34,639 bases of DNA from Bryobacteraceae bacterium CoA2 C42 (GTDB taxonomy: Bacteria > Acidobacteriota > Terriglobia > Bryobacterales > Bryobacteraceae). Shown here piece by piece: positions 382 to 23,702 of the stretch. The first letter of the stretch is position 1. The number at the start of each line of letters is the position of its first letter. The position numbers and the translations under genes are program-made. The DNA lies in assembly GCA_019931245.1 (NCBI GenBank), contig JAINDL010000009.1:1-34639 (forward strand), in the 5' to 3' direction. The notes beneath the pieces were generated by a model, which was not told the DNA's origin, searched no databases, and saw nothing but the letters and a program-made list of their open reading frames with translations.

Positions 382-1128
382 TCAACTCTTGAGATCGTGC
401 AGCGCCGCGGTGATCGCCGGCTTGATCCATTCGGCCAGCGGAGTCCACGGCAGGCGGGGGACGCCGCCGTAGTAGCTGTTGCCGTCCATGGCGCACTTCA
501 GCGCCGGGACGCCGTGCGCTTCGACGAGGGCGACGAGCGGCCGGATGCGCTGCTGCCAGTCGGTGCCGGCCTCGTGTTCGCGCTGCCGGAAGGCCTCCCA
601 GATCAGTTGGACGGAATACGGAATCGCGTTGGCCACCGGCACGACGGCCGCACTGGCGCCGCCCTCGAAGGCGGCAAACAGGTTGGCAGCGTTCTGTGCC
701 AACGCCACGGGCAGGATGTTCGGATGCGCCGGGGCCGGTTCGCCGTCCACCAGTACCGGAACGCGCGCCCCGTCGGCCACGGCGCGGTAGTACAACTGCC
801 GGGTCTCGCCCGTGTATTCGGCCGCCGCCCGGACGAAGGCAAAGTGGTAGCCGAGTTCCGCCGCGCGGTTGGCCAGCGCCACCGTCTCCCGCACGCTCGG
901 CGCCGAGGCCGCCGCGCCCAGCAGTTTGCCCGGCTTGGTACTCGCCGCCACCCACTCCCACACCAGCGGCTTCTCTTCGGAGGTCAGCACCGCTTCGCCG
1001 GCCACGTAGCCGGCCAGCGCGATCGCGTTCAACCGCTCGACGTTACTCTTCAGCTTGGCCTTGTAGACGTCGCCGCGATGATCGAACGGCGTCGAAACCG
1101 GAACGAGAATGCCCTGAATTTTCAGCAT
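382..1128 (-). CDS. DapA/DHDPS-fold protein lacking catalytic residues
   Basis: A 248-residue protein whose N-terminus (MLKIQGILVPVSTPF) and overall order match the dihydrodipicolinate synthase / N-acetylneuraminate lyase TIM-barrel family, which is normally about 290 residues. Several family landmarks are altered. The GTTGE loop reads YVAGE (residues 41-45). The tyrosine normally followed by N-V-P is replaced in 'VPVLVDGEP' (123-131). The strand with the Schiff-base lysine is missing, because the text jumps from 'LAQNAANL' straight to 'FAAFEGGASAAVVPVANAIP', which aligns after that strand. There is no lysine at all between residues 69 and 210. The C-terminal part is preserved, including 'HGVPALKCAMDGNSYYGG'. 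A DapA-type aldolase or lyase reaction therefore seems unlikely; a divergent or non-enzymatic role is possible. It starts 14 nt after a strong hairpin downstream of atpE, and no good Shine-Dalgarno is seen. Confidence 0.75.
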   Translation of the reverse strand: MLKIQGILVPVSTPFDHRGDVYKAKLKSNVERLNAIALAGYVAGEAVLTSEEKPLVWEWVAASTKPGKLLGAAASAPSVRETVALANRAAELGYHFAFVRAAAEYTGETRQLYYRAVADGARVPVLVDGEPAPAHPNILPVALAQNAANLFAAFEGGASAAVVPVANAIPYSVQLIWEAFRQREHEAGTDWQQRIRPLVALVEAHGVPALKCAMDGNSYYGGVPRLPWTPLAEWIKPAITAALHDLKS

Positions 1129-1185: not shown

Positions 1186-1464
1186 TCAGCCTTTGACGAA
1201 AACGATGACGAGGGTGAACAGCGCCAGCGACTCGATGAAGACGAGGCCCAGCAGACCGAGGCCACGGATCACCGTCGCCGCGCCGGGGTTGCGGGCGATG
1301 GCTTCGACCGCGCCGGCAATCGCCTTGCCTTGGCCGAGCGCGCACAGGCCCGAGGCAATGGCCATCGAGAAGGCGCTGGTGAGCACGATGCCGCCGTCAG
1401 CGGCCATCGAGGGGATCGCAAAGGCCATCAGTACGATGGCGAGGACAAACATTTTTCCGAACAT
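1186..1464 (-). CDS. atpE: ATP synthase F0 subunit c
   Basis: This 92-residue proteolipid forms the rotating c-ring of F-type ATP synthase and carries the coupling ion. Residues 1-22 form a hydrophobic, signal-like N-terminal extension ending in PSMAA. Helix 1 carries GQGKAIAGAVEAIARNP (44-60), including the conserved loop R-N-P. Helix 2 carries the ion-binding carboxylate E78 in VFIESLALF. Gln45 and Glu78 are 33 residues apart, as Q32 and E65 are in Ilyobacter tartaricus, and a serine follows the glutamate (S79). However, the positions matching T67 and Y70 of the Na+ enzyme are Leu80 and Phe83. The ATG has an AAAGGAG Shine-Dalgarno (minus strand 1480-1474) at about 9 nt. It is the last F0 gene of the operon, 107 bp after atpB. 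Subunits b and delta and all of F1 are absent here. Confidence 0.97.
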   Translation of the reverse strand: MFGKMFVLAIVLMAFAIPSMAADGGIVLTSAFSMAIASGLCALGQGKAIAGAVEAIARNPGAATVIRGLGLLGLVFIESLALFTLVIVFVKG

Positions 1465-1571
1465 AGGGTGTTGCTCCTTTGGGGTATGAATTGCGCTCAG
1501 GAGGTGGTTCCGTTCCTCCGTTGGGACGGGGAGGGCTCACACTGGCGCGGGGTTAATGCCAGATGAATCGT

Positions 1572-2303
1572 TTAGTGCTCGTCGCCCACCGCGGCGCCGA
1601 TGTAGATCAGCGTCAGCAGCGCGAAGACGTAGGCCTGAATGACCGAAATGAACACGTGCAGCCCCATGAAGGCCACCGGGACGATCAGATAGGTCAGGCT
1701 CAGGAAGACCAGCGTCACCTGCTCGCCGGCGAACATGTTGGCGAACAGACGTATCGTCAGCGAAACCGGACGGGCCGCGTGGCTGACAATCTCAATGGGC
1801 AGCATCAGCGGGGTCAACCACCAGATGGGACCCGTGAACTGGCTGATGTAGTGGCCGCCGTGCTGGCGGATGCCTTGAATGTTGTAGTAGAGGAAAGCGA
1901 GCAGGGCGATGCCGGCCGGAACGTAGTGGTACATCGTCGGCGATTCAAACGTGGGAATTACGCCCAACAGATTCGAAAACAGCACGAAAACGAAAAACGT
2001 GCCGGCGATCGGGATGTACTTCTTGTAGCCTTCGTGTACGTTGTCGTGCGCCTGTTCGCCCAAGAACTCGTACATGGCTTCGAGCACGTGCTGCAGTTTG
2101 CCGGGCGCCGTCATCGAAAAGCCGCTTTTGGCAATCGTAAACAGAATCACGATCAACACCGCCACCAGGATCTCCATGGTGATGTAGTTGGCCCACGGCC
2201 GGGCGTGGGTGGGCAGCCCTGCCGCGGAGAGAACGGAGTTGCCTAAACCGGCCAGATGATCGTTGAAGAGGGCGGTGAGCCAGAGCTCATGAGATTCGTG
2301 CAT
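1572..2303 (-). CDS. atpB: ATP synthase F0 subunit a
   Basis: This 243-residue integral membrane subunit a forms the ion half-channels next to the c-ring. The essential stator arginine is R185 in RPVSLTIRLFANMFAGE. Other family marks are the 'SNLLGVIPTFESPT' segment (110-123) and the C-terminal helix with 'VFISVIQAYVFALLTLIYIGAA' character, containing the conserved Gln223. Five to six membrane spans are visible. The N-terminal region has 'GLPTHARPWANYITMEIL', the periplasmic lead-in to the first helix. Its ATG overlaps the 3' end of atpI by 17 bp, so translation is probably coupled. An interval of 107 bp with its own Shine-Dalgarno precedes atpE, which may allow higher c-subunit expression. 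Confidence 0.97.
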   Translation of the reverse strand: MHESHELWLTALFNDHLAGLGNSVLSAAGLPTHARPWANYITMEILVAVLIVILFTIAKSGFSMTAPGKLQHVLEAMYEFLGEQAHDNVHEGYKKYIPIAGTFFVFVLFSNLLGVIPTFESPTMYHYVPAGIALLAFLYYNIQGIRQHGGHYISQFTGPIWWLTPLMLPIEIVSHAARPVSLTIRLFANMFAGEQVTLVFLSLTYLIVPVAFMGLHVFISVIQAYVFALLTLIYIGAAVGDEH

Positions 2304-2640
2304 AAATCAGTTGGTAGAGGGCTTCTCCCAGTGCCGCCGCGGCCGCCGTCAGCAGGCCGATCAGAAACGTAACCGGGGTAACCGCAAATATCTTGAGCAT
2401 AACATAGCCCACCCCGGCCAAGGCCGCCAAACGCAGACCCAGCAGGCCCGCGCGCGCCGGCGTCGGCCGGGAAAAAGCGCGTTCGAGCCAGCGGAAGTTA
2501 GCCCAGGCCGCCGCGGCGCCGCTCGCTACACCCAGCGCGGCCAGCCCGCCCCACCCCACGCCCGCCACCGCGGTAAACACCACGCCCCAGCCGGCAATGC
2601 CCCACTCCATCCGCCGCACCAAGGCCGCGTAGCCGTTCAC
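2287..2640 (-). CDS. atpI: ATP synthase subunit I-type membrane protein
   Basis: A 117-residue hydrophobic protein starting with GTG at 2640. That GTG overlaps the TGA of atpZ in a GTGA tetranucleotide. It shows four predicted membrane spans (about residues 12-30, 31-48, 63-83 and 86-108), with a basic cytoplasmic loop 'WLERAFSRPTPARAG' between spans 2 and 3. This topology and its place just upstream of atpB match the AtpI/ATP-synt_I family, a proposed assembly factor for the c-ring and possibly a Mg2+ handling partner. Sequence identity within this family is low, so the call depends mostly on context and topology. Confidence 0.85.
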   Translation of the reverse strand: MNGYAALVRRMEWGIAGWGVVFTAVAGVGWGGLAALGVASGAAAAWANFRWLERAFSRPTPARAGLLGLRLAALAGVGYVMLKIFAVTPVTFLIGLLTAAAAALGEALYQLIYARIS

Positions 2641-2864
2641 CGGGCGTCCTTATCCCGGTCAAACTCTTTGTTCAGTTTCCGGATCAGATCGCGCATCCCC
2701 GCAATTACCCCCACGATTAACCAGAACACCCCCCAGAACGTGGTCCCGAAGACATGGTCGAGCGCGGCGCCGATCCCGTAGCCCACCACCACGCTCACCG
2801 GCAAGATCAACGCCAGGTGCATGGCGTCGGAGATCATCCGGCCAACGCTGCGCTCCCGCTTCAC
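2637..2864 (-). CDS. atpZ: AtpZ/AtpQ-type F0 accessory membrane protein
   Basis: A small protein of 75 residues if it starts at the GTG at 2864, which overlaps the cytochrome stop as GTGA. ATG codons at 2837 and 2822 are alternative starts. It has two membrane helices: 'MHLALILPVSVVVGYGIGAALDHVFG' with the characteristic G-x-G-x-x-L-D turn, and 'WGVFWLIVGVIAGMRDLIRKLN' with the conserved G-x-x-x-G-x-R pattern. It ends in a charged tail (KEFDRDKDAR). This is the AtpZ (ATPase_gene1) family, which accompanies atpI-atpB-atpE in many bacteria and is reported to form a complex with AtpI. It lies between the hexaheme cytochrome and atpI, with 4-nt overlaps on both sides. Confidence 0.88.
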   Translation of the reverse strand: MKRERSVGRMISDAMHLALILPVSVVVGYGIGAALDHVFGTTFWGVFWLIVGVIAGMRDLIRKLNKEFDRDKDAR

Positions 2865-3367
2865 CGCGACGACACCGCCAGCGTATGCCGCGCATGGCAG
2901 TTCATGCAGGTCACCTTCGCCGCGCCCGCGCTCACCGGCGGCTGTTTGCACGCCGCCGGCGTCGAGGTGTGGCACCGCGCACAACCCGCCTGCGTCGCCG
3001 TCCATTCCTTCATATCGTGGTGACCGTGGCAGGTGCTGCAGTTGGCCGATTTCGCCGTCCGCTGGACCACCGCCGCATGATGTTTGCTCTGCATGTACTG
3101 GTTCTTTTCGAGCTGATGGCAGTTGCCGCACATGCCCGCCACCTCGTCGGGCGCCGCCACGCGCTCCGGCGGCGCCTCGCCGTTGCTTTTGCGGTGCTTC
3201 TCGCTCGGCCCGTGGCAGACGCCGCACTGCAGCCCCGCGCGCGAGTTGTGCTTGTGCTTGCTGAAGTCGGCAATCTGCTCGTTGTGGCACGGCGCGCAGT
3301 CCTGCTGTGCGTCTGTGCGAAACGAAGCCAACACCGGCAGCAAAACCAACCACAGCAGCCGGCTCAC
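2861..3367 (-). CDS. Periplasmic hexaheme c-type cytochrome
   Basis: A 168-residue protein starting with GTG at 3367, whose last two bases form a GTGA overlap with the stop of the upstream dehydrogenase. An N-terminal signal peptide (VSRLLWLVLLPVLASFRTDA) is followed by six CxxCH heme-attachment motifs at residues 24-28, 48-52, 80-84, 110-114, 129-133 and 154-158. Additional histidines (H39/H40 region, H97/H98, H116/H117, H161) could serve as distal heme ligands. The spacing resembles the multiheme cytochromes of the NapC/NrfB/doubled-CXXCH group, but I do not recognise a precise family. Its role is inferred as a periplasmic electron carrier. Its closest genomic partner is a Tat-exported FMN dehydrogenase translated in the same coupled chain, so it may accept electrons from that enzyme. 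Longer upstream in-frame starts overlap the dehydrogenase and do not look like signal peptides. Confidence 0.93.
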   Translation of the reverse strand: MSRLLWLVLLPVLASFRTDAQQDCAPCHNEQIADFSKHKHNSRAGLQCGVCHGPSEKHRKSNGEAPPERVAAPDEVAGMCGNCHQLEKNQYMQSKHHAAVVQRTAKSANCSTCHGHHDMKEWTATQAGCARCHTSTPAACKQPPVSAGAAKVTCMNCHARHTLAVSSR

Positions 3368-4506
3368 CCGAGCTTCCTCGTCACCAGGGTCCTTGTAATG
3401 TCGCCCGGCTTGGCCATCCCGGCCAGCGCCATGGCCAGTTTCAACTCGGCGTTCAGCATCCACAGCACCCGCTCGACGCCCGGCTGCCCGAACGCGCCCA
3501 GACCCCACAACGGCGCCCGGCCCACCAGCACGGCCTTGGCGCCCAGCGCCATCGCCTTCAGAATATCGGTGCCGCGGCGCAGCCCGCCGTCCATCAGCAC
3601 GGGCACGTTGCCTCCGACGGCGTCCACGCAGTCAGGCAGCGCCTCGAGCGTTCCCATGACGCCGTCGAGCTGCCGGCCGCCGTGGTTGGAGACGACAATG
3701 GCGTCCGCCCCGTGCTTCACCGCCAGCGCGGCGTCCTCCGGATGGATGATCCCCTTGACGATCACCGGGATCTTCGCCCCCTCCTTGAGCCAGGAGATCT
3801 GTTCCCAGGTCATCTGCGGCGTGTGCGGCTGCCACATGGCCGGCAGCGCCGGAGACTTCGGCGCCGGCTTCGGTTCGCCGTCCTTGGGCACCCCGGTCTG
3901 CATGTAGCCGTAGTCGAACCGGTTGCGGTTGTTGCGATCGCGGTTCGACTGGTATTGGTTGTCGACGGTGAGCGTGATGGCCCGGCCGCCGCCGTCTTCG
4001 ATGCGCCGTGCGTAGCCCCGGGCCTGCGCCTTGGTCGCCGCGCCGATCGTGTTGCTCCACCACAGCAGCGGCTCCCCTTTCTCAAGGATCTTCTGCACGC
4101 CGGTCGCCGAGCAGATCAGCGTCTTCGAGGCGAGCGCCGCCGCCGCCACCTTCTCATCGGCGCTTTCGATCACCAGGTTCTTGCCGCCGGTCGGCGCAAT
4201 GAGAATGGGACTCGCCAGCTTCATGCCGAGCAGGTCCACTTCGAGCGACACGTTCGAGACGTCGGTCATCACCCGCGGGCGCAGCGCGAACTTCCCGTAC
4301 GCCTCGCGGTTGGCCCGCAGCGTGTACTCGTCCTCAACGCCGCCGGCGATAAAGTCATAAGCCAGCTTGTGCATCTTCCGTTTGGCCACCTCCTCAAACT
4401 CGTGCACATTCACCGGGCCCATCAACTCATCGGGCACCGCGGCCGGCAACAGCGGCGATCCCGCCGCCAAGCCCACCAGGTTCCGCACCAATTCCCGCCG
4501 ATTCAT
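3364..4506 (-). CDS. Tat-exported FMN-dependent alpha-hydroxy-acid dehydrogenase (lactate/glycolate oxidase family)
   Basis: A 380-residue enzyme starting at the ATG at 4506, which overlaps the hemD stop as ATGA. The leader MNRRELVRNLVGLAAGSPLLPAA is Tat-like, so the protein is probably folded with FMN and then exported. The FMN-binding TIM barrel shows family marks: YDFIAGGVEDEYTLRANREAY (50-70), the FMN lysine region VIVKG (K251), and the catalytic SNHGGRQLD with His275 and Arg278. The MDGGLRRGTDILKAMALGA phosphate-binding segment follows at 305-323. The 'WFQLYV' substrate/FMN motif of glycolate and lactate oxidases is replaced by 'WWSNTIG' (149-155), so the usual Gln and active-site Tyr are changed. 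The substrate is therefore uncertain, although a 2-hydroxy acid such as lactate is likely from the family. A GTGA overlap with the hexaheme cytochrome suggests that the cytochrome, not O2, is the electron acceptor. Confidence 0.9.
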   Translation of the reverse strand: MNRRELVRNLVGLAAGSPLLPAAVPDELMGPVNVHEFEEVAKRKMHKLAYDFIAGGVEDEYTLRANREAYGKFALRPRVMTDVSNVSLEVDLLGMKLASPILIAPTGGKNLVIESADEKVAAAALASKTLICSATGVQKILEKGEPLLWWSNTIGAATKAQARGYARRIEDGGGRAITLTVDNQYQSNRDRNNRNRFDYGYMQTGVPKDGEPKPAPKSPALPAMWQPHTPQMTWEQISWLKEGAKIPVIVKGIIHPEDAALAVKHGADAIVVSNHGGRQLDGVMGTLEALPDCVDAVGGNVPVLMDGGLRRGTDILKAMALGAKAVLVGRAPLWGLGAFGQPGVERVLWMLNAELKLAMALAGMAKPGDITRTLVTRKLG

Positions 4507-5315
4507 CGTTTCGCCTCCAAGATCGCCGCCGCCTGTTCTCCGGCTTCTTTCACGAGAATGCCCATCTTCGGGTGCGACGGTTCCATATCGGCCTTTAATC
4601 CTATCTCTTCGAGCGCCTCCGATGTCGTGGGCCCGATCGAGCCGATCACCATCCGCCGCAGCGCGGGCAGCACGTCGACTCCCTCTTCGGCCGCCACCTG
4701 CAGCAGATGCGTCACCTGAATCGAGGTTGTGAGCAGCACCACGGCGAACTCTCCGGCCGCAATCCCCCGCGCCGCCGCCCGCAGTGGCGCCGTATCCTCC
4801 GGCAGCGCCCATTGGTAAACCGGCACCGGGGTCACCTCCGCCCCGGTCTCGCGCAGCGCGGCCAGCAAAGCCAGATTCGACTTGCCATACTCCTGCACGG
4901 CGATGCGCCGTTCGGTGCGCCCGCGCATCACCTGCATCAGCTCCCGCCAGGTGTTCGGCTCCGGGGCCATGGCCGCCGCGGGAACGTTCCACTCGCGCAG
5001 CACGGCCATCGGCTTCGGCCCCCGCGCCACCACGGGCCGCTTCCGTAACTCCGCGGCCAAGGCTCCTTCCGGCCAGCGCGTGGCGATCACGCGGTCGAGC
5101 GCCCGCGCGCCGACCCCCGTCAGCAGGATGACGAGATCGAACTCGCCGGCTTGCAACTGTTCGAAGAAGGCGAACGCTTCCGGGTTGTCAGCAATCGGCA
5201 CCTCCCGCATCGACGGCGCCACCGTCGCCACGCCCCCGTTCTTCTCCACCAGCACCGCCATCTCGGCCGCCCGCCGCGACTCGAGCGCCAGCACCCGCAA
5301 TCCGTCAAAACCCAT
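4503..5315 (-). CDS. hemD: Uroporphyrinogen-III synthase family protein
   Basis: A 270-residue protein with the two-lobed HemD fold. HemD closes hydroxymethylbilane with inversion of ring D to give uroporphyrinogen III, the precursor of heme, siroheme and cobalamin. Visible family marks are the N-terminal 'LRVLALESRRAAEMAVLVEKNGG', the first-lobe 'LVILLTGVGARAL' (about 61-73), the hinge 'PVVARGPKP', the second-lobe 'VVLLTTSIQVTHLLQ' and the C-terminal 'VIGSIGPTTSEALEEIGL...PSHPKMGILV'. Sequence conservation in HemD is low, but this last block is distinctive. It begins 4 bp after the upstream peroxiredoxin-like gene and overlaps the dehydrogenase by 4 nt. Its place directly ahead of a hexaheme cytochrome gene suggests that heme supply and cytochrome production are coordinated. 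Confidence 0.9.
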   Translation of the reverse strand: MGFDGLRVLALESRRAAEMAVLVEKNGGVATVAPSMREVPIADNPEAFAFFEQLQAGEFDLVILLTGVGARALDRVIATRWPEGALAAELRKRPVVARGPKPMAVLREWNVPAAAMAPEPNTWRELMQVMRGRTERRIAVQEYGKSNLALLAALRETGAEVTPVPVYQWALPEDTAPLRAAARGIAAGEFAVVLLTTSIQVTHLLQVAAEEGVDVLPALRRMVIGSIGPTTSEALEEIGLKADMEPSHPKMGILVKEAGEQAAAILEAKR

Positions 5316-5319
5316 GTCT

Positions 5320-6159
5320 CTAGGTTAGCTGGCAATAATCCGGCCGGTCGCCGGCCGTGGCGTGGCGGTACTCCTTCACAATCCGCCCGCCCCGCACAAG
5401 AAAGGCTCCCGGCATCTGAAACCCATCGCCTTCGAGAAACCCTACGCCGTGCTGCCGCCAGGCGAGGAAGCCGCGCCGCCAGACCGCCGGACCCAGCAGC
5501 TGCCACAGGCTCCCCCGCTGCAGCCCAAACGCTTTGTAGAGCGCCCGCTCCGGATCGCGCACCCGCTCGACGTCCGCCAAACCGTACCGGGCGAAGAACT
5601 CGTCCCCCGCGCCCATGTGCACGAGGACGATCTTCGTGCCATCAGCCTCAATCTGTCGCCGCTGCCGCGCGATGTCGGCCAGCGCTTCCCGGCAGAACGT
5701 ACAGCCCGCGTGCCGGAGAAACACGACGAGCGCGTCGCGATGCCGGGCCAGAAACGGCTCCGCCTCGCCCACCGGTCCGCGATCCCGCCACGCGCCCCGC
5801 AGAATGAGTGCGAACGGAATCAGCCAGATCAAATCGTTCGTGATGTTGTTCACCCCAAACCACCAGGAGAAGCGCCCCGCCACGGCCGCCTGCACGAACC
5901 CGATCGGTCCGAACAGTTTGCCCAGAAACCCCACCAGCACAATCGGCCAGTGGCGATACGGGTCAAGCGCGGCCAGCGCGTAGCCGACGCCGTACACCCC
6001 GACAATCATGGCGATACACTGCCACAACTCAGGGTAGTTCGGCCGCTCCATGCCAGCCCAATCAAACATCAGATGGGGCCAGAGCCCCACCAATAATCCC
6101 CAGCTGATGTTGTAGATTCCGGCCGCCAGCAACCAGCGCTTCATCCAGATTGGAGCCAT
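5320..6159 (-). CDS. Membrane-anchored peroxiredoxin-like (AhpC/TSA_2) protein
   Basis: A 279-residue two-part protein. About the first 125 residues form four hydrophobic segments (starting MKRWLLAAGIYNISWGLLVGLWP). The C-terminal half is a thioredoxin-fold domain of the AhpC/TSA_2 (PRX-like, SelL-related) group, with a redox motif 'FLRHAGCTFCREAL' giving a C153-x-x-C156 pair, and the later 'GDGFQMPGAFLVRGGRIV' strand-turn typical of peroxiredoxin-like folds. The likely role is thiol-dependent peroxide or disulfide chemistry at the membrane; the substrate is unknown. The start at 6159 is preferred because residues encoded further upstream are not membrane-like and would overlap the divergent TerC gene. 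ATG 6144 is an alternative. It is the first gene of the minus-strand operon leading to hemD and the F0 genes. Confidence 0.8.
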   Translation of the reverse strand: MAPIWMKRWLLAAGIYNISWGLLVGLWPHLMFDWAGMERPNYPELWQCIAMIVGVYGVGYALAALDPYRHWPIVLVGFLGKLFGPIGFVQAAVAGRFSWWFGVNNITNDLIWLIPFALILRGAWRDRGPVGEAEPFLARHRDALVVFLRHAGCTFCREALADIARQRRQIEADGTKIVLVHMGAGDEFFARYGLADVERVRDPERALYKAFGLQRGSLWQLLGPAVWRRGFLAWRQHGVGFLEGDGFQMPGAFLVRGGRIVKEYRHATAGDRPDYCQLT

Positions 6160-6223
6160 ACTTATGAGGACAGATGCGCAGAAACGGTTGCTGGTCGTGC
6201 TATCTTCAGGACACCAGCCCTGC

Positions 6224-6895
6224 ATGCCGGAACTGTCCCTTCAACTCCTCATCGACATCTTCGCTATCGTCCTGATTGACCTGCTCCTGGCCGGCGACAA
6301 CGCCGTCATTATAGCCCTGGCCGTCAAGTCGCTGCCCGATCGCGAGAAAAAGCTCGGCATCCTGATCGGCGCGGGCGTCGCCGTCGTGCTCCGTATCGGC
6401 CTCACGTTCTTCGCCGCCCAACTCCTGCAGGTCTCGTGGCTGAAGCTCGTCGGCGGCCTCGCGATTTTCTGGATCGCCATCAAGCTCCTCACCGACGCCG
6501 CCGACCACGACGCCGGCGGACCGCAGGCGGCGACGCTCATGTCCGCCATCTGGTACATCCTGGTGGCCGACATCACCATGTCGGTCGATAACATTCTGGC
6601 CGTGGCCGGCACTTCGAAGGGGAGCCTGCCGCTGCTGATCTTCGGCCTCGGCCTGTCGATCCCCTTCGTCGTCTTCACGTCCAAGATCCTGTCCACCATC
6701 ATGGACAAGTACCCGGTGATCGTCTGGATCGGCGCCGCCATCCTGGGCCGCGTCGGCGCCGAGATGATCCTCACCGACCCGGTCGTCCGTTCTTCTTTCC
6801 ATCCGCCGTTCGCCGTCGATGTCGCGATTCAGATCGCCGGCGCGCTGCTTGTGGTAGGCGCCGGCTGGTTCCTGGCTAAGCGAAAAGCGGCTTGA
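6224..6895 (+). CDS. TerC/YjbE-family integral membrane protein
   Basis: A 223-residue protein of the TerC superfamily, YjbE-like branch. The family is linked to metal-ion (Mn2+) export and tellurium resistance and is often controlled elsewhere by the yybP-ykoY manganese riboswitch. Key sites are the paired acidic motifs in membrane helices: 'LLLAGDNAVIIALAV' near the N-terminus and 'ADITMSVDNILAVAG' at mid-protein. Seven hydrophobic segments are visible, ending in a short basic tail (AKRKAA). The ATG at 6224 is chosen because TM1 begins right after it. The longer frame from 6164 adds a non-membrane, basic N-terminus. The region between the divergent genes is about 64 bp, too short to hold a yybP-ykoY element, and I see none. 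The 3' end overlaps the convergent DUF1501 gene by 20 bp. Confidence 0.88.
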   Translation: MPELSLQLLIDIFAIVLIDLLLAGDNAVIIALAVKSLPDREKKLGILIGAGVAVVLRIGLTFFAAQLLQVSWLKLVGGLAIFWIAIKLLTDAADHDAGGPQAATLMSAIWYILVADITMSVDNILAVAGTSKGSLPLLIFGLGLSIPFVVFTSKILSTIMDKYPVIVWIGAAILGRVGAEMILTDPVVRSSFHPPFAVDVAIQIAGALLVVGAGWFLAKRKAA

Positions 6896-8246
6896 TCACG
6901 TGTCCGTGCACGTCGGTCAACCGGCGCTGCAGGCCGTTGTGGTACCAGCTCAGCCGCGTGTGGTCGAGCCCCATCAGATGGAGAATCGTCGCGTGGAAAT
7001 CGTACAGCGTTACCGGGTTCTCCGCCGCTTTGTAGCCCATCTCGTCGGTTGACCCGTAGCTGAAGCCCTTCTTCAGGCCCGGCCCGACCATCCACGACGT
7101 GAAGCCTTCGGGGTTGTGGTCGCGCCCGCCTTCGCCCAAACCTTCCGAGATCGGCAGGCGGCCGAACTCGGTGGTAAAGACCACCAGCGTATCGTCGAGC
7201 ATGCCGCGCTGCTTGAGGTCCTGGAGCAGCGCCGCGGTGGGCTGGTCGAGAATGCGCGCGTTCTTGCCGTGGTTGGTGATCAGGTCCTCATGCGCGTCCC
7301 AGTTCACCCGGGGCGCGCCGAAGTGCCCGCCATTGTACATCTGGATCACCCGCACCCCGCGCTCCATCAGCCGCCGGGCCAGCAGGCAGTTGTAGCCGTA
7401 GTCCCGCATCTCCGGGTCGTCGAGCCCGTAGGCCTTGCGAGTGGCTTCCGTCTCGCCGCGGATGTCGGTCACCTCGGGGGCGGCCAACTGCATCTTGGCG
7501 GCCAGTTCATAAGCCCGGATGCGCGAGACCAGCGCGTCCTCACCGGGGTTGGCTTCGGCGTGCCCTTCGTTCAACCGGCTCAGCAGGTCGTAGCTGGCCG
7601 CCTGGGCTTTGGCGTTCACGGCCGCCGGCGGCCGCAGGTTCGCAATCGGCTGCTCCTGCGTGCCGAAGGCCACGCCCTGATGCACGGCCGGCAAAAAGCC
7701 GTTGCCCCAGTTGGCAACGCCGCACGGCGGCAGGCCGCGCCGGTCGGGCAGCACGACAAACGACGGCAGGTTCTCGTTCTCGCTGCCGAGGCCGTAGCTG
7801 ATCCACGAGCCAATCGAGGGGAAGCCCTGGAAGATGAACCCCGTCGACATCTGAAACAGCGCCGGGCCGTGGGCGTTCGACCGCGTGACCATCGAATGAA
7901 CGAACGTCGTGTCGTCGACGCAGGTGGCCAGATGGGGCAGCAGTTCGCTCACCCACTTGCCGCTCTGCCCGTGCCGGGCGAACTTCCAGGGCGACTGCAT
8001 CACGGTGCCGCGCTTGCCGAAAAACGGGGTGATGGTGTTGGCCCCCTGCGTCTCCTTGCCGTGGTGTTTGACGAGCTCCGGCTTGTAGTCGTAGGTGTCG
8101 ACGGCGCTCAGGCCGCCGGGCAGGAAGATCATGATCAGCCGCTTGGCCTTGGCCGGGAAATGGGTGCCTTTGCCCTGCAGCAGTTGCGCCAGCGCCAGTC
8201 CCGCGGCGCCGCCGCCCACATTCCAAAGTAGATCTCGTCTCGTCAT
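6876..8246 (-). CDS. DUF1501 protein, Tat-exported, sulfatase-like fold
   Basis: A 456-residue DUF1501 protein (alkaline phosphatase/sulfatase-like superfamily; biochemical function unproven). It starts at the ATG at 8246, overlapping the upstream DUF1549/1553 stop as ATGA. The leader MTRRDLLWNVGGGAAGLALAQLL is a Tat signal. Family marks: 'AKRLIMIFLPGGLSAVDTYDYKP' near the N-terminus, 'PSIGSWISYGLGSENENLPSFVVL' in the middle, 'LLARRLMERGVRVIQMYNGG', 'LKQRGMLDDTLVVFTTEFGR' and the C-terminal 'GRDHNPEGFTSWMVGPGLKKG', ending 'LYDFHATILHLMGLDHTRLSW'. The conserved Asp and His residues in these blocks are candidate metal ligands. It belongs to a two-gene unit with the upstream gene. Confidence 0.93.
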   Translation of the reverse strand: MTRRDLLWNVGGGAAGLALAQLLQGKGTHFPAKAKRLIMIFLPGGLSAVDTYDYKPELVKHHGKETQGANTITPFFGKRGTVMQSPWKFARHGQSGKWVSELLPHLATCVDDTTFVHSMVTRSNAHGPALFQMSTGFIFQGFPSIGSWISYGLGSENENLPSFVVLPDRRGLPPCGVANWGNGFLPAVHQGVAFGTQEQPIANLRPPAAVNAKAQAASYDLLSRLNEGHAEANPGEDALVSRIRAYELAAKMQLAAPEVTDIRGETEATRKAYGLDDPEMRDYGYNCLLARRLMERGVRVIQMYNGGHFGAPRVNWDAHEDLITNHGKNARILDQPTAALLQDLKQRGMLDDTLVVFTTEFGRLPISEGLGEGGRDHNPEGFTSWMVGPGLKKGFSYGSTDEMGYKAAENPVTLYDFHATILHLMGLDHTRLSWYHNGLQRRLTDVHGHVIKPLFA

Positions 8247-10759
8247 GGGATATACAAGAATTCGTTCGTGTTCAACAGCACGCGACAAAACAAAGCCAAC
8301 GAATGTTCGGCCGCGTAACGGCCGCCCAGCGCCAATTCGCGCTCCGTGGCCGGCCGCCCCAGCACGATCTCGTAGGCCCGGCCCACGCTGCCGGCGCGCG
8401 CGGCCAGTTTCTGCGCCTGCTCCCAGACAAAGTCGTCGTTGAGCAGCGTGAGCGCCTGCAGCGCCGTGTTCGAGGAGCTCCGCTGCGGCGTCGCCACCGA
8501 CGGGTCCGGGCAGTCAAAGTTATCCATCATCAGCCGGTCCCCGCCCCGCACGTTGAAGCGGTAGACGCTGCGCCGCCAGGTCTCCGGCCCCGGGTTATCG
8601 ACTGCCTTGAAAATGTAGGAGCCGCCCGACTGCATCCGGTGCAGCCGGAAGCTCGGGCCGCCCATCGTCAGGTCCAGCGTGCCGGCCGCGGCCAGCATCG
8701 AATCCCGCAGTGTTTCGGCGTCCATCCGCTTGAGCGGCATGTGCCACAGCAGGCGGTTGCCCGCGTCGATGGCGAAGGCTTTGGCGTTATGCGCCGCCGA
8801 CTGCTGATAGGCCTCGGTGAGCAGAATCTGCCGGTGCAGCCACTTCAGGCTCCAGCCGTTTTCGACAAACGAGGCGGCCAGCCAGTCGAGCAGCTCGGGG
8901 TGCGAGGGGCGGTCGCCCATCAGGCCAAAGTCGCTCGGGGTGTTCACGATGCCGTTGCCGAAGTGGAAGTACCAGACGCGGTTGACGATCACGCGCGCGG
9001 TGAGCGGGTTGGCCGGATCGGTCATCCAATCGGCTAGCGCCAGGCGCCGGTCTTTATCCGTGGCGAAAGCGGCCGGCAGCACGGACAAAGCGCCGGGGTC
9101 GACAGCCGCGCCCTTGCGCGTGATGCTGCCGCGCTCGAGAACATAGGCCTGTTCGGGCTTGTGCGGCATGGCGGCGTAGAGCTTTTCAGGCGCGGGGAGT
9201 TTGGCGATCTCCGCCTTCAGCCGGTCGCGCTCCCGCTTCAGTTCCGGCACCAGGCCCGGGTCCGGCGCCGCGGGCAGGCTGACCTCGACGCTGCGGATGT
9301 GATCGAGTGAACTGGCTACCTCCACCCACTGGTCTCCCCGCCGGGCTTCGACGCGGTAGACGGTAATCCCGCCGGGCCGCCGCGCCATCTGTTCATCGCA
9401 GGCCCAGGCGATTTCGCCCGGCGCGGCCACCTCGCCGAGGGGCAGGTAGACCGGCTCGTCCGGCGTGGCCTTGCGTTCGGCCTGCCACTTTTCGATGCGC
9501 CGTCCGCCCACGGTGAGCCAGTCGAGCTTAGCCAGCGGCCCGTCGTGGCCGGTGATGACGAGCCGCAGTTGGCCGGGCTCGCGGACGCGGTTGACGTTGA
9601 AGACGGGGTTGAGTGGAATGCGCCGGGTCTGGCCCTGGCGCGCGGCGTCAAACTCGCGGATCGCCTTCCGGAGGTAGGCCGCGCGCACGGGGTCTTCGGC
9701 GTCGGCAATCTGCTGCTCGACGGTTTTCAACTGCGCCCGCAGCGGCGCGACGGCTTTTTCGTAGGCGGCCTTGGCCTCCGGCGTCACCACCTCGCGGGTG
9801 CCGAAGCCGACGGTCTGGAAGACCCCGGTGAGCTTGTAGTAGTCCCGCGTGGGGATAGGGTCGAACTTGTGGTCGTGGCAGCGGGCGCAGTTGGCCGTCA
9901 TGGCCTGAAAGGTGTGCATGGTGGTGGTGACCATGTCGTCGAGCTCGTCCATGCGGGCGGTGGCCTTCATGGCGACGTCTTTGTTGAGTTCGGCGGAGAC
10001 GGAGTCCCAGGGGCCGGCGGTAAGGAAGCCGGTGGCGCGGACCATTTTGGGGTCCTGCGGGGCCAGGAGATCGCCGGCGATCTGTTCGCGCAGGAACCGC
10101 GGATAGGGCTTGTCGGCGTTCAGGGACTCGATGACGTAGTCGCGGTATGGCCAGGCCAGCGCCCGTTCGAAGTTGTGTTCGCCGCCGTCGGTTTCGCCGA
10201 AGCGGACGACGTCGAGCCAGTGCCGGCCCCAGCGTTCGCCGTAGCGGGGCGAGGCGAGGTAGGCGTCAATGACCTTCTCGTAGGGGGCCCGCTCGTAGGG
10301 CTGCGTTTCGCCCGGCGGTAGTCCCGTGAGGTCAAAGGCGAGCCGCCGGAGCAGCGTCCGCTCGTCGGCGCGCGGGGCGAAGCCGAGGCCTTTGGCTTGC
10401 AGCTTTTCGAGCAGGAATGCGTCGATGGGCGTCCGGGCACCGGTACCGGCGGGCACCGGCGGCTTCGCCACCGGCCGGAAGGCCCAGAACATCTTGCGCG
10501 GCGCCGCGGCCAAGGGTTTGGCGCCGCCCTCGACCCACGCCTTCACCGCTGCTACCTCTTCGGGCGACAGCCGTGGTCCGCCGAGCGGCATCTCGCCGCT
10601 TTCGATGCGCGCCATCACCCGCGGCGAGGCCGCTTTCGTCAGGTCGAAGCCTGCCGAGACCTTTTCGCCTCCATGACACTTCAGGCACCGGTCCCGCAAC
10701 ACGGAGGCGGGATCCGCCCCCCACGCCGTACCGGCCAACAGCAGCACGAGCCATCGCAT
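8243..10759 (-). CDS. PSCyt1-DUF1549-DUF1553 secreted cytochrome-like protein
   Basis: An 838-residue exported protein starting at the ATG at 10759 (leader MRWLVLLLAGTAWG). Residues 18-80 are a short, reduced PSCyt1-type domain with one heme motif (C25-L-K-C-H29). DUF1549 follows at about 105-310, with 'TLLRRLAFDLTGLPP', 'YGERWGRHWLDVVRF' and a second heme-type motif C291-A-R-C-H295. A linker of about 250 residues with coiled-coil segments leads to DUF1553, which contains 'NPLTARVIVNRVWYFHFGNGIV', 'SHPELLDWLAASF' and 'LRDSMLAAAGTLD'. The domain order is standard for Planctomycetes and Solibacter-type proteins, whose function is still unknown; roles in polysaccharide or sulfated-glycan degradation have been suggested. 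It is coupled to the downstream DUF1501 gene and starts 6 nt after the tRNA 3' end. Confidence 0.93.
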   Translation of the reverse strand: MRWLVLLLAGTAWGADPASVLRDRCLKCHGGEKVSAGFDLTKAASPRVMARIESGEMPLGGPRLSPEEVAAVKAWVEGGAKPLAAAPRKMFWAFRPVAKPPVPAGTGARTPIDAFLLEKLQAKGLGFAPRADERTLLRRLAFDLTGLPPGETQPYERAPYEKVIDAYLASPRYGERWGRHWLDVVRFGETDGGEHNFERALAWPYRDYVIESLNADKPYPRFLREQIAGDLLAPQDPKMVRATGFLTAGPWDSVSAELNKDVAMKATARMDELDDMVTTTMHTFQAMTANCARCHDHKFDPIPTRDYYKLTGVFQTVGFGTREVVTPEAKAAYEKAVAPLRAQLKTVEQQIADAEDPVRAAYLRKAIREFDAARQGQTRRIPLNPVFNVNRVREPGQLRLVITGHDGPLAKLDWLTVGGRRIEKWQAERKATPDEPVYLPLGEVAAPGEIAWACDEQMARRPGGITVYRVEARRGDQWVEVASSLDHIRSVEVSLPAAPDPGLVPELKRERDRLKAEIAKLPAPEKLYAAMPHKPEQAYVLERGSITRKGAAVDPGALSVLPAAFATDKDRRLALADWMTDPANPLTARVIVNRVWYFHFGNGIVNTPSDFGLMGDRPSHPELLDWLAASFVENGWSLKWLHRQILLTEAYQQSAAHNAKAFAIDAGNRLLWHMPLKRMDAETLRDSMLAAAGTLDLTMGGPSFRLHRMQSGGSYIFKAVDNPGPETWRRSVYRFNVRGGDRLMMDNFDCPDPSVATPQRSSSNTALQALTLLNDDFVWEQAQKLAARAGSVGRAYEIVLGRPATERELALGGRYAAEHSLALFCRVLLNTNEFLYIP

Positions 10760-10765
10760 AAAACC

Positions 10766-10841
10766 TGGTGGGCCCTGTTGGATTCGAACCAACAACCAAC
10801 GGATTATGAGTCCGCTGCACTAACCGTTGTGCTAAGGGCCC
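10766..10841 (-). tRNA. tRNA with CAT anticodon (Met or lysidine-type Ile)
   Basis: A 76-nt minus-strand tRNA with encoded CCA (10768-10766). The acceptor stem GGGCCCT/AGGGCCC is perfect, the D arm is GCAC/GTGC, the anticodon stem GCGGA/TCCGT holds the loop CTCATAA, and the T arm GTTGG/CCAAC holds TTCGAAT. The anticodon CAT is shared by elongator tRNA-Met and tRNA-Ile2 (C34 modified to lysidine). The D arm and the CTTAGC start resemble Ile2 tRNAs, but I cannot separate the two by eye. It sits between the ABC ATPase gene and the DUF1549/1553 gene, all on the same strand. Confidence 0.95.

Positions 10842-20696: not shown

Positions 20697-23702
<3,006 letters not shown>

Follow-up and report, generated by a model that had tools for sequence, protein, structure and literature searches.

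The window analyzed here is a 34,639-nucleotide stretch of DNA from Bryobacteraceae bacterium CoA2 C42, a soil-type bacterium. On its minus strand, seven genes follow one another from hemD to atpE, and an eighth gene lies directly upstream:

5320..6225, minus strand: gene with an AhpC/TSA_2 domain (Pfam AhpC-TSA_2, E 8.6e-11)
4503..5315, minus strand: hemD, uroporphyrinogen-III synthase (Pfam HEM4, E 1.3e-35)
3364..4506, minus strand: FMN-dependent dehydrogenase of the glycolate-oxidase superfamily with an N-terminal twin-arginine (Tat-like) signal (Pfam FMN_dh, E 5.2e-100)
2861..3367, minus strand: c-type cytochrome with six CXXCH motifs and a GTG start (Pfam Cytochrome_C7, E 6.2e-8)
2637..2864, minus strand: atpZ, ATPase_gene1 family (Pfam ATPase_gene1, E 1.4e-8)
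2287..2640, minus strand: atpI (Pfam ATP-synt_I, E 2.2e-5; 25.2 bits, barely above the cut-off of 25.1)
1572..2303, minus strand: atpB, F0 subunit a (Pfam ATP-synt_A, E 3.2e-51; the sole match in the genome)
1186..1464, minus strand: atpE, F0 subunit c (Pfam ATP-synt_C, E 3.1e-11)

All seven genes from hemD to atpE exceed their Pfam cut-offs in profile searches. The chain of overlaps described in a sequence-only reading of this DNA is real: on re-reading, hemD overlaps the dehydrogenase gene by 4 nt (ATGA), and 4-nt overlaps (GTGA) also join the dehydrogenase and cytochrome genes, the cytochrome gene and atpZ, and atpZ and atpI. The atpI and atpB genes overlap by 17 nt, and a 107-nt gap separates atpB from atpE. 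The chain goes beyond chance, because every one of the 17 testable genomes of the host genus carries it (two truncated by contig ends). The overlaps lend no particular support to the dedicated co-translation that had been suggested, since such starts are common in this operon of relatives as well. The AhpC/TSA_2-domain gene, absent from that reading, stops 4 nt short of hemD, so the transcript may begin further upstream. Relatives of this gene were found, among the loci searched, in only eight genomes (window included), all from one sub-group of the host genus. It is possibly the first gene of the transcript and a lineage-specific neighbor.

The dehydrogenase scores 335.3 bits against the Pfam FMN_dh model (cut-off 24.9), which places it in this superfamily. 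The positions that we take to be catalytic, Asp157, Arg164, Lys230, His254, and Arg257 (spinach numbering), are intact in all 58 ortholog rows. At the substrate site, the tyrosines of hydroxy-acid oxidizers are missing: the Tyr24 column contains Phe in 56 rows, Tyr in one, and a gap in one, and the Tyr129 column has no Tyr in any of the 58 rows, in a gapped part of the alignment that leaves the exact partner residue unsure. The fold matches that of glycolate oxidase (1al8, TM 0.74), and the nearest solved folds, those of glycolate oxidase and long-chain hydroxy acid oxidase, share ~34% identity with the window enzyme. Unlike these oxidases, the window enzyme has a Tat-like signal, a cytochrome neighbor, no Tyr in the Tyr129 column, and a Gly at the position of Trp108. 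Its Phe at the Tyr24 position is shared with long-chain hydroxy acid oxidase (PMC10153336), so Tyr24 is not strictly defining. With both substrate-site tyrosines almost always replaced, oxidation of lactate, which the sequence-only reading named as a possible function, is doubtful despite the intact catalytic residues. Lactate was dropped as an unsupported substrate, the score against the L-lactate dehydrogenase LldD model (NCBIfam NF033901) reaching 193.5 bits, far under its cut-off of 550. Assignment to pre-mycofactocin synthase MftD (NCBIfam TIGR03966) was likewise rejected, at 200.6 bits against a cut-off of 470.85, and no Pfam match to a fused cytochrome b5-like heme domain was found at E <= 0.001 within the 380 residues of the dehydrogenase. 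The N-terminus carries a twin-arginine consensus motif, of which R3 and R4 are invariant in 15 aligned rows, and the genome encodes TatC (203.9 bits); on these two features, the dehydrogenase is predicted to be a Tat substrate and to be exported. The pN/pS values of 0.06-0.17 in five comparisons indicate purifying selection.

The cytochrome is also under purifying selection (pN/pS of 0.18-0.34, five comparisons), and its six CXXCH motifs are invariant in 17 aligned rows. Its N-terminus, judged by eye, is a hydrophobic signal. Covalent heme attachment is predicted from the CXXCH motifs and from the cytochrome c assembly genes found in the genome. The protein scores 32.8 bits against the cytochrome c7 and related model (Pfam PF14522, cut-off 24.8), an assignment to a broad superfamily only. 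Its best profile resemblances are to the MtrA/DmsE-type model TIGR03508 (E 7.8e-9) and to PDB chain 6r2q_A (E 3.9e-7), which we take to be the Mtr complex, although its name in the search output is odd. Membership in the DmsE/MtrA decaheme family was rejected, since the window cytochrome has six hemes in ~150 residues rather than ten and scores 35.4 bits against the TIGR03508 cut-off of 192.2. The predicted structure (pLDDT 60) was too poor to use.

In relatives, the dehydrogenase and cytochrome genes form a unit that extends beyond the ATP synthase locus. A cytochrome above 90 bits is present in at least 48 of 200 genomes of the host family, a lower bound set by scoring at most 18 candidates per genome, and in 20 of these 48 it lies away from F0. 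In 19 family genomes, and in four genomes outside the family (three from other families of the order, one from the class), the stretch read around the pair contains no F0 gene. With gene starts picked by script, the overlap between the two genes among the 27 F0-linked loci measures 4 nt in 20 and 10 nt in six; among the 19 family loci away from F0, it measures 4 nt in 18 and 10 nt in one. This recurrence apart from F0, mostly with the same overlap, suggests that the pair is a real unit, an electron-transfer module. In a phylum-wide search that scored nine candidates per genome, and that is thus weak as a sign of absence, only the host's own cytochrome was recovered at E <= 1e-20 among 396 genomes. 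Neighbor-gene clustering of the 19 loci away from F0 gave no cluster except the pair in more than four loci; the simple gene caller used overlooked short genes, the cytochrome among them, in several of these loci. Pairwise distances of the two proteins agree (r 0.75, n=50; largest of 2000 permutations, 0.16), as shared descent would give. Across 23 F0-linked loci, the agreement between dehydrogenase and AtpB (0.915) is as good as that between dehydrogenase and cytochrome (0.916), so such figures cannot tell interaction from common inheritance.

Further support for a link between flavin and multiheme partners comes from near paralogs of the dehydrogenase, most of which have a twin-arginine N-terminus. 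In nine of the 16 paralog loci fetched, the gene adjoins a different cytochrome with four or five CXXCH motifs; the other seven, one of them at a contig edge, have no multiheme neighbor. This pattern favors electron transfer from flavin to multiheme cytochromes. Among the 80 top-scoring FMN_dh loci of a wide scan, only the two true orthologs have at least three CXXCH motifs in an ORF within 1.5 kb; this count includes 36 rows that lack the first queried residue and are uninformative on the substrate site. The pairing is not obligate. Seven family genomes have a dehydrogenase ortholog and no cytochrome: the gene is F0-linked in three of them, all from one genus, adjoins hemD in another two, and lies elsewhere in the last two. 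Genome G026 has the cytochrome before atpZ with no dehydrogenase ortholog at the threshold used. These dehydrogenase-only genomes, the replaced tyrosines, and the low E-value of the MftD match (3.1e-59) would suit an oxidase or an MftD-like maturation enzyme, with the cytochrome as an unrelated neighbor or a general electron sink. We regard this as quite improbable, given the sub-threshold MftD score, the paralogs beside other multiheme cytochromes, and the conservation of the pair beyond the family's borders. An exported flavoenzyme that works with a periplasmic multiheme cytochrome, as the sequence-only reading had it, is still the best reading of the pair.

In 23 of the 46 family F0 loci read, hemD directly adjoins atpZ and the pair is absent; the hemD-F0 link is therefore separate from the pair and broader than it, and hemD does not belong to a package of heme synthesis and cytochrome. 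The sequence-only reading took F0 genes to be usually grouped with each other or with F1 genes. In acidobacteria, however, the F0 a and c genes are reported to lie apart from the b and F1 genes, with the split between subunits c and b (PMC4154653). The atpI-atpB-atpE portion of the window resembles such a locus, and the F1 genes lie on another contig of the host genome; the placement of hemD and the pair before atpZ differs, a feature on which that account of the split is silent.

To account for this placement, the sequence-only reading proposed a dedicated module in which co-translation with F0 adjusts the electron input in the periplasm to the number of ATP synthases. Its expectation of retention beside F0 is borne out: beyond the 17 genomes of the host genus, the dehydrogenase gene, the cytochrome gene, or both lie upstream of atpZ in 11 additional genera, so the lack of retention that would speak against it did not occur at genus depth. 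In five of these genera (g23, g26, g54, g69, g70), no hemD is present in the upstream stretch read, and a link that lasts in this way fits some selection for F0 proximity. A crude consensus scan found no promoter-like site in the seven-gene chain and four terminator-like sites, none of them on the minus strand within the chain, a result that speaks for such a module; both counts are as in shuffled sequence. However, matching to ATP synthase dosage is not a general requirement, because the pair occurs without F0, where its overlap is kept, and because the cytochrome was found in only the minority of family genomes counted above. The F1 genes would have to be matched too, yet they lie on another contig. 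A dedicated module thus appears unlikely, and the interpretation offered by the sequence-only reading is, overall, partly supported.

The position beside the ATP synthase is probably inherited rather than special wiring. With unlinked outgroups as the root, the dehydrogenase tree requires seven changes of the F0-linked label, compared with 19.6 under shuffling, and dehydrogenase and AtpB distances agree at r 0.91 over the 23 F0-linked loci. From parsimony, we infer a single insertion between hemD and atpZ; against it counts the AtpB tree, in which only 21 of 72 inner branches are well supported. Horizontal transfer of the whole hemD-dehydrogenase-cytochrome-F0 block, in place of ancestral insertion and loss, could explain why F0-linked loci are scattered on the AtpB tree (nine changes) and why the dehydrogenase tree splits the host genus in two. 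Such transfer seems distinctly improbable, because the deep AtpB nodes lack resolution, the 13 AtpB rows of the genus form one clade (SH-aLRT 95), and dehydrogenase and AtpB distances agree.

The reading that we consider probable is a periplasmic two-gene dehydrogenase-cytochrome module that was ancestrally inserted and then inherited. The dehydrogenase would be exported folded by Tat, with FMN bound, and by the usual His-base FMN chemistry would oxidize a small molecule, which is probably a 2-hydroxy acid or a compound of related kind. Electrons would pass to the hexaheme cytochrome and from there to further c cytochromes of the periplasm. The module would have entered between hemD and atpZ in the family ancestor; many lineages would have inherited this position, and others would have repeatedly lost or moved the module. 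Proximity to F0 would then bring shared transcription, with no dedicated physical or regulatory link. A broader proposal, which we hold to be rather unlikely, is that Acidobacteria have a whole suite of FMN dehydrogenases that are exported by Tat and individually paired with a multiheme cytochrome, a hexaheme one in the window and a tetraheme or pentaheme one in the case of the paralogs. Together they would form an undescribed periplasmic oxidation system. In the host family, selection would hold one of these modules inside the F0 operon and thereby tie its output to the synthesis of ATP synthase.

In flavocytochrome b2, an FMN 2-hydroxy-acid dehydrogenase domain reduces a c cytochrome outside the inner membrane. 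The window dehydrogenase resembles this L-lactate:cytochrome c oxidoreductase in its FMN_dh domain and catalytic residues and differs from it in having no fused heme b, a separate hexaheme partner, replaced tyrosines, and a Tat-like signal. No description of the hemD-dehydrogenase-cytochrome-F0 arrangement was found in titles and abstracts of the open PMC literature. The locus illustrates how easily an operon neighborhood is over-read: what looks like one chain here consists of three blocks that can be separated, namely hemD, the flavoenzyme pair, and F0. If the favored reading is true, the module offers a signature by which it can be recognized in sequence and two partners that can be tested together, and the respiratory repertoire of the little-studied acidobacteria would gain the flavocytochrome b2 idea in a split form with a multiheme partner.

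The seven genes hemD, FMN dehydrogenase, cytochrome, atpZ, atpI, atpB and atpE lie on the minus strand, with successive overlaps of 4, 4, 4, 4 and 17 nt; atpB and atpE are separated by 107 nt. All seven have Pfam matches above cut-off (atpI barely), and the chain of overlapping genes described in the sequence-only reading is real. Six CXXCH motifs are present in the cytochrome, and the N-terminus of the dehydrogenase is Tat-like. Upstream, an AhpC/TSA_2-domain gene stops 4 nt short of hemD, so the transcript start may lie above it. The window is an entire contig of a 6.07-Mb assembly (237 contigs), and the genome has a single atpB match. The F1 and stalk genes are located on a separate contig (C98), where the ORFs around an OSCP match follow the order expected for atpF, atpH, atpA, atpG and atpD; these names come from reading the sequences by eye, and OSCP alone from a match. 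A c/b split of the ATP synthase genes is reported for acidobacteria in PMC4154653. No description of the present arrangement was found in the open PMC literature, which was covered mostly at title and abstract level. Other genes in the window include:

382-1128, minus strand: DHDPS-family gene, downstream of atpE and on the same strand
6879-10795, minus strand: DUF1501 gene adjoining a PSCyt2/PSD1 (DUF1549/DUF1553) gene
20697-21377, plus strand: PSCyt1 planctomycete-type cytochrome gene

At genus depth, the FMN gene and the cytochrome gene (the pair) are kept beside F0 genes. An FMN ortholog was found in 17 of the 19 genus genomes searched, and atpB in 18. In all 17 genomes with the ortholog, the FMN gene is a short way upstream of atpB on a single contig, and reading these neighbourhoods for gene content, window included, placed the cytochrome and atpZ between the two in every case (atpZ of G177 was called by a tuned profile only). 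hemD is seen in 16/17, the contig of G113 stopping inside the FMN gene; that of G192 stops inside atpB, leaving atpE beyond view. Of the two remaining genomes, G811 has a contig that stops at atpZ, and no atpB match was obtained for G812 (58% complete).

At family level, the cytochrome profile scored >90 bits in 48 of 200 Bryobacteraceae genomes, no more than 18 candidates being scored in each. When the loci were read, the cytochrome was upstream of atpZ (F0-linked) in 28 of the 48 genomes and 20 were unlinked, meaning that no F0 gene occurs in the stretch read, several such stretches being short (3.6 to 9.4 kb). The linked group includes G009, whose locus lies at the edge of a contig with 475 nt between cytochrome and atpZ, and G026, without an FMN gene; the unlinked group includes G057, a weak match (92 bits) with no adjoining FMN gene. 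For the FMN gene, a profile separated orthologs (≥490 bits) from paralogs (≤425 bits) across 299 class and 200 order genomes. Seven more family genomes carry it without the cytochrome (F0-linked in three, next to hemD but apart from F0 in two, at other places in two), a partial count for the 200 family genomes because these searches sampled class and order. The pair also occurs in four genomes outside the family, again with no F0 gene in the stretch read. Genus-specific states are an FMN gene that precedes atpZ with no cytochrome gene present (L207, L208, L209) and hemD-FMN without cytochrome or F0 (L210, L211). An unlinked ortholog without cytochrome in G122 (L212) carries a single in-frame TAA within the region matched and is possibly a decaying copy.

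Where both genes are present, FMN and cytochrome overlap by 4 nt in 20/27 F0-linked and 18/19 unlinked family loci, and by 10 nt in six and one, respectively; in the sole family exception, a gap of 104 nt was computed between them. The outgroup loci give -13, -4, 56 and 359. Gene starts were picked by script, and individual values may be wrong. Among 46 F0 loci lacking the pair, a set that leaves out L200, which has the cytochrome, 23 have hemD overlapping atpZ or ≤70 nt away from it. Since the FMN-cytochrome overlap also occurs away from F0, and hemD adjoins atpZ without the pair, hemD-F0 and FMN-cytochrome are separate associations, and the proposal that hemD, dehydrogenase, cytochrome and F0 form one package is not supported. 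An F0 link with hemD unseen in the upstream stretch occurs in other genera (g23, g26, g54, g69, g70). Four loci (L187, L208, L209, L220), each from a single genome, have 0.7-2.1 kb of additional DNA between atpZ and atpI or atpI and atpB.

An FMN tree of 58 rows (31 F0-linked, 25 away, two beside hemD), rooted on the unlinked outgroup, gave 7 changes of the F0-linked label, at least 5 of them forced by well-supported branches, against 19.6 in shuffles; an AtpB tree (75 rows) gave 9 versus 23.2. Because the F0-linked pair is directly before atpZ, the simplest reading is a single insertion with later losses and moves. The deep branches are poorly resolved, and the whole block could instead have been transferred. 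FMN and AtpB distances agree (r 0.91, 23 loci), which fits common descent; this agreement is as high as that between FMN and cytochrome at the same loci, and thus neither demonstrates interaction.

A structure model of the dehydrogenase (pLDDT 71.5, several loops poorly predicted) best matches glycolate oxidase. The orthologs share with that enzyme the catalytic Asp, Arg, Lys, His and Arg (58/58 rows) but differ in the substrate site: Tyr24 is Phe and Trp108 is Gly in 56/58 each, and Tyr129 is Tyr in 0/58. According to PMC10153336, long-chain hydroxy acid oxidase likewise has Phe at the Tyr24 position, and Trp at the 108 column is particular to glycolate oxidases. Given the retained catalytic residues and the Phe24 precedent, hydroxy-acid chemistry is possible, with a substrate that is not predictable from the residues; lactate, suggested earlier, has no support. 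Both pair genes are under purifying selection, and the genome has TatC and cytochrome c assembly genes.

Near paralogs were hand-picked from the class and order FMN search lists (16 loci, one from each of 16 genomes), and most have a twin-arginine N-terminus. Nine of them have, within 2.5 kb and also within 1.5 kb, an ORF carrying four or five CXXCH motifs; no multi-CXXCH neighbour was found within 2.5 kb in the other seven. The partners are as follows:

Tetraheme, homologous, with a non-heme N-terminal part: L224, L225, L226, L231, L235, L236, L237
c7-like pentaheme: L227, L229

None of the nine matched the hexaheme cytochrome profile, and the non-heme part had no Pfam match above cut-off in three tested. 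One of the pentaheme proteins is similar to QrcA, a subunit of menaquinone reductase (94 bits, below the cut-off of 180). Among the best 80 of at least 598 matches from a wide genome scan, a neighbour with at least three CXXCH motifs within 1.5 kb occurred only at the two true orthologs, a loose control, the other 78 loci being mostly from other phyla. That such enzymes recur beside multiheme proteins of different kinds is the pattern expected if the flavin donates electrons to these proteins, and gives independent support for electron transfer. The special link of the pair to the ATP synthase is the weakest part of the finding; the more interesting result is the pair itself, together with the larger group of Tat-type FMN enzymes that have multiheme proteins encoded nearby.
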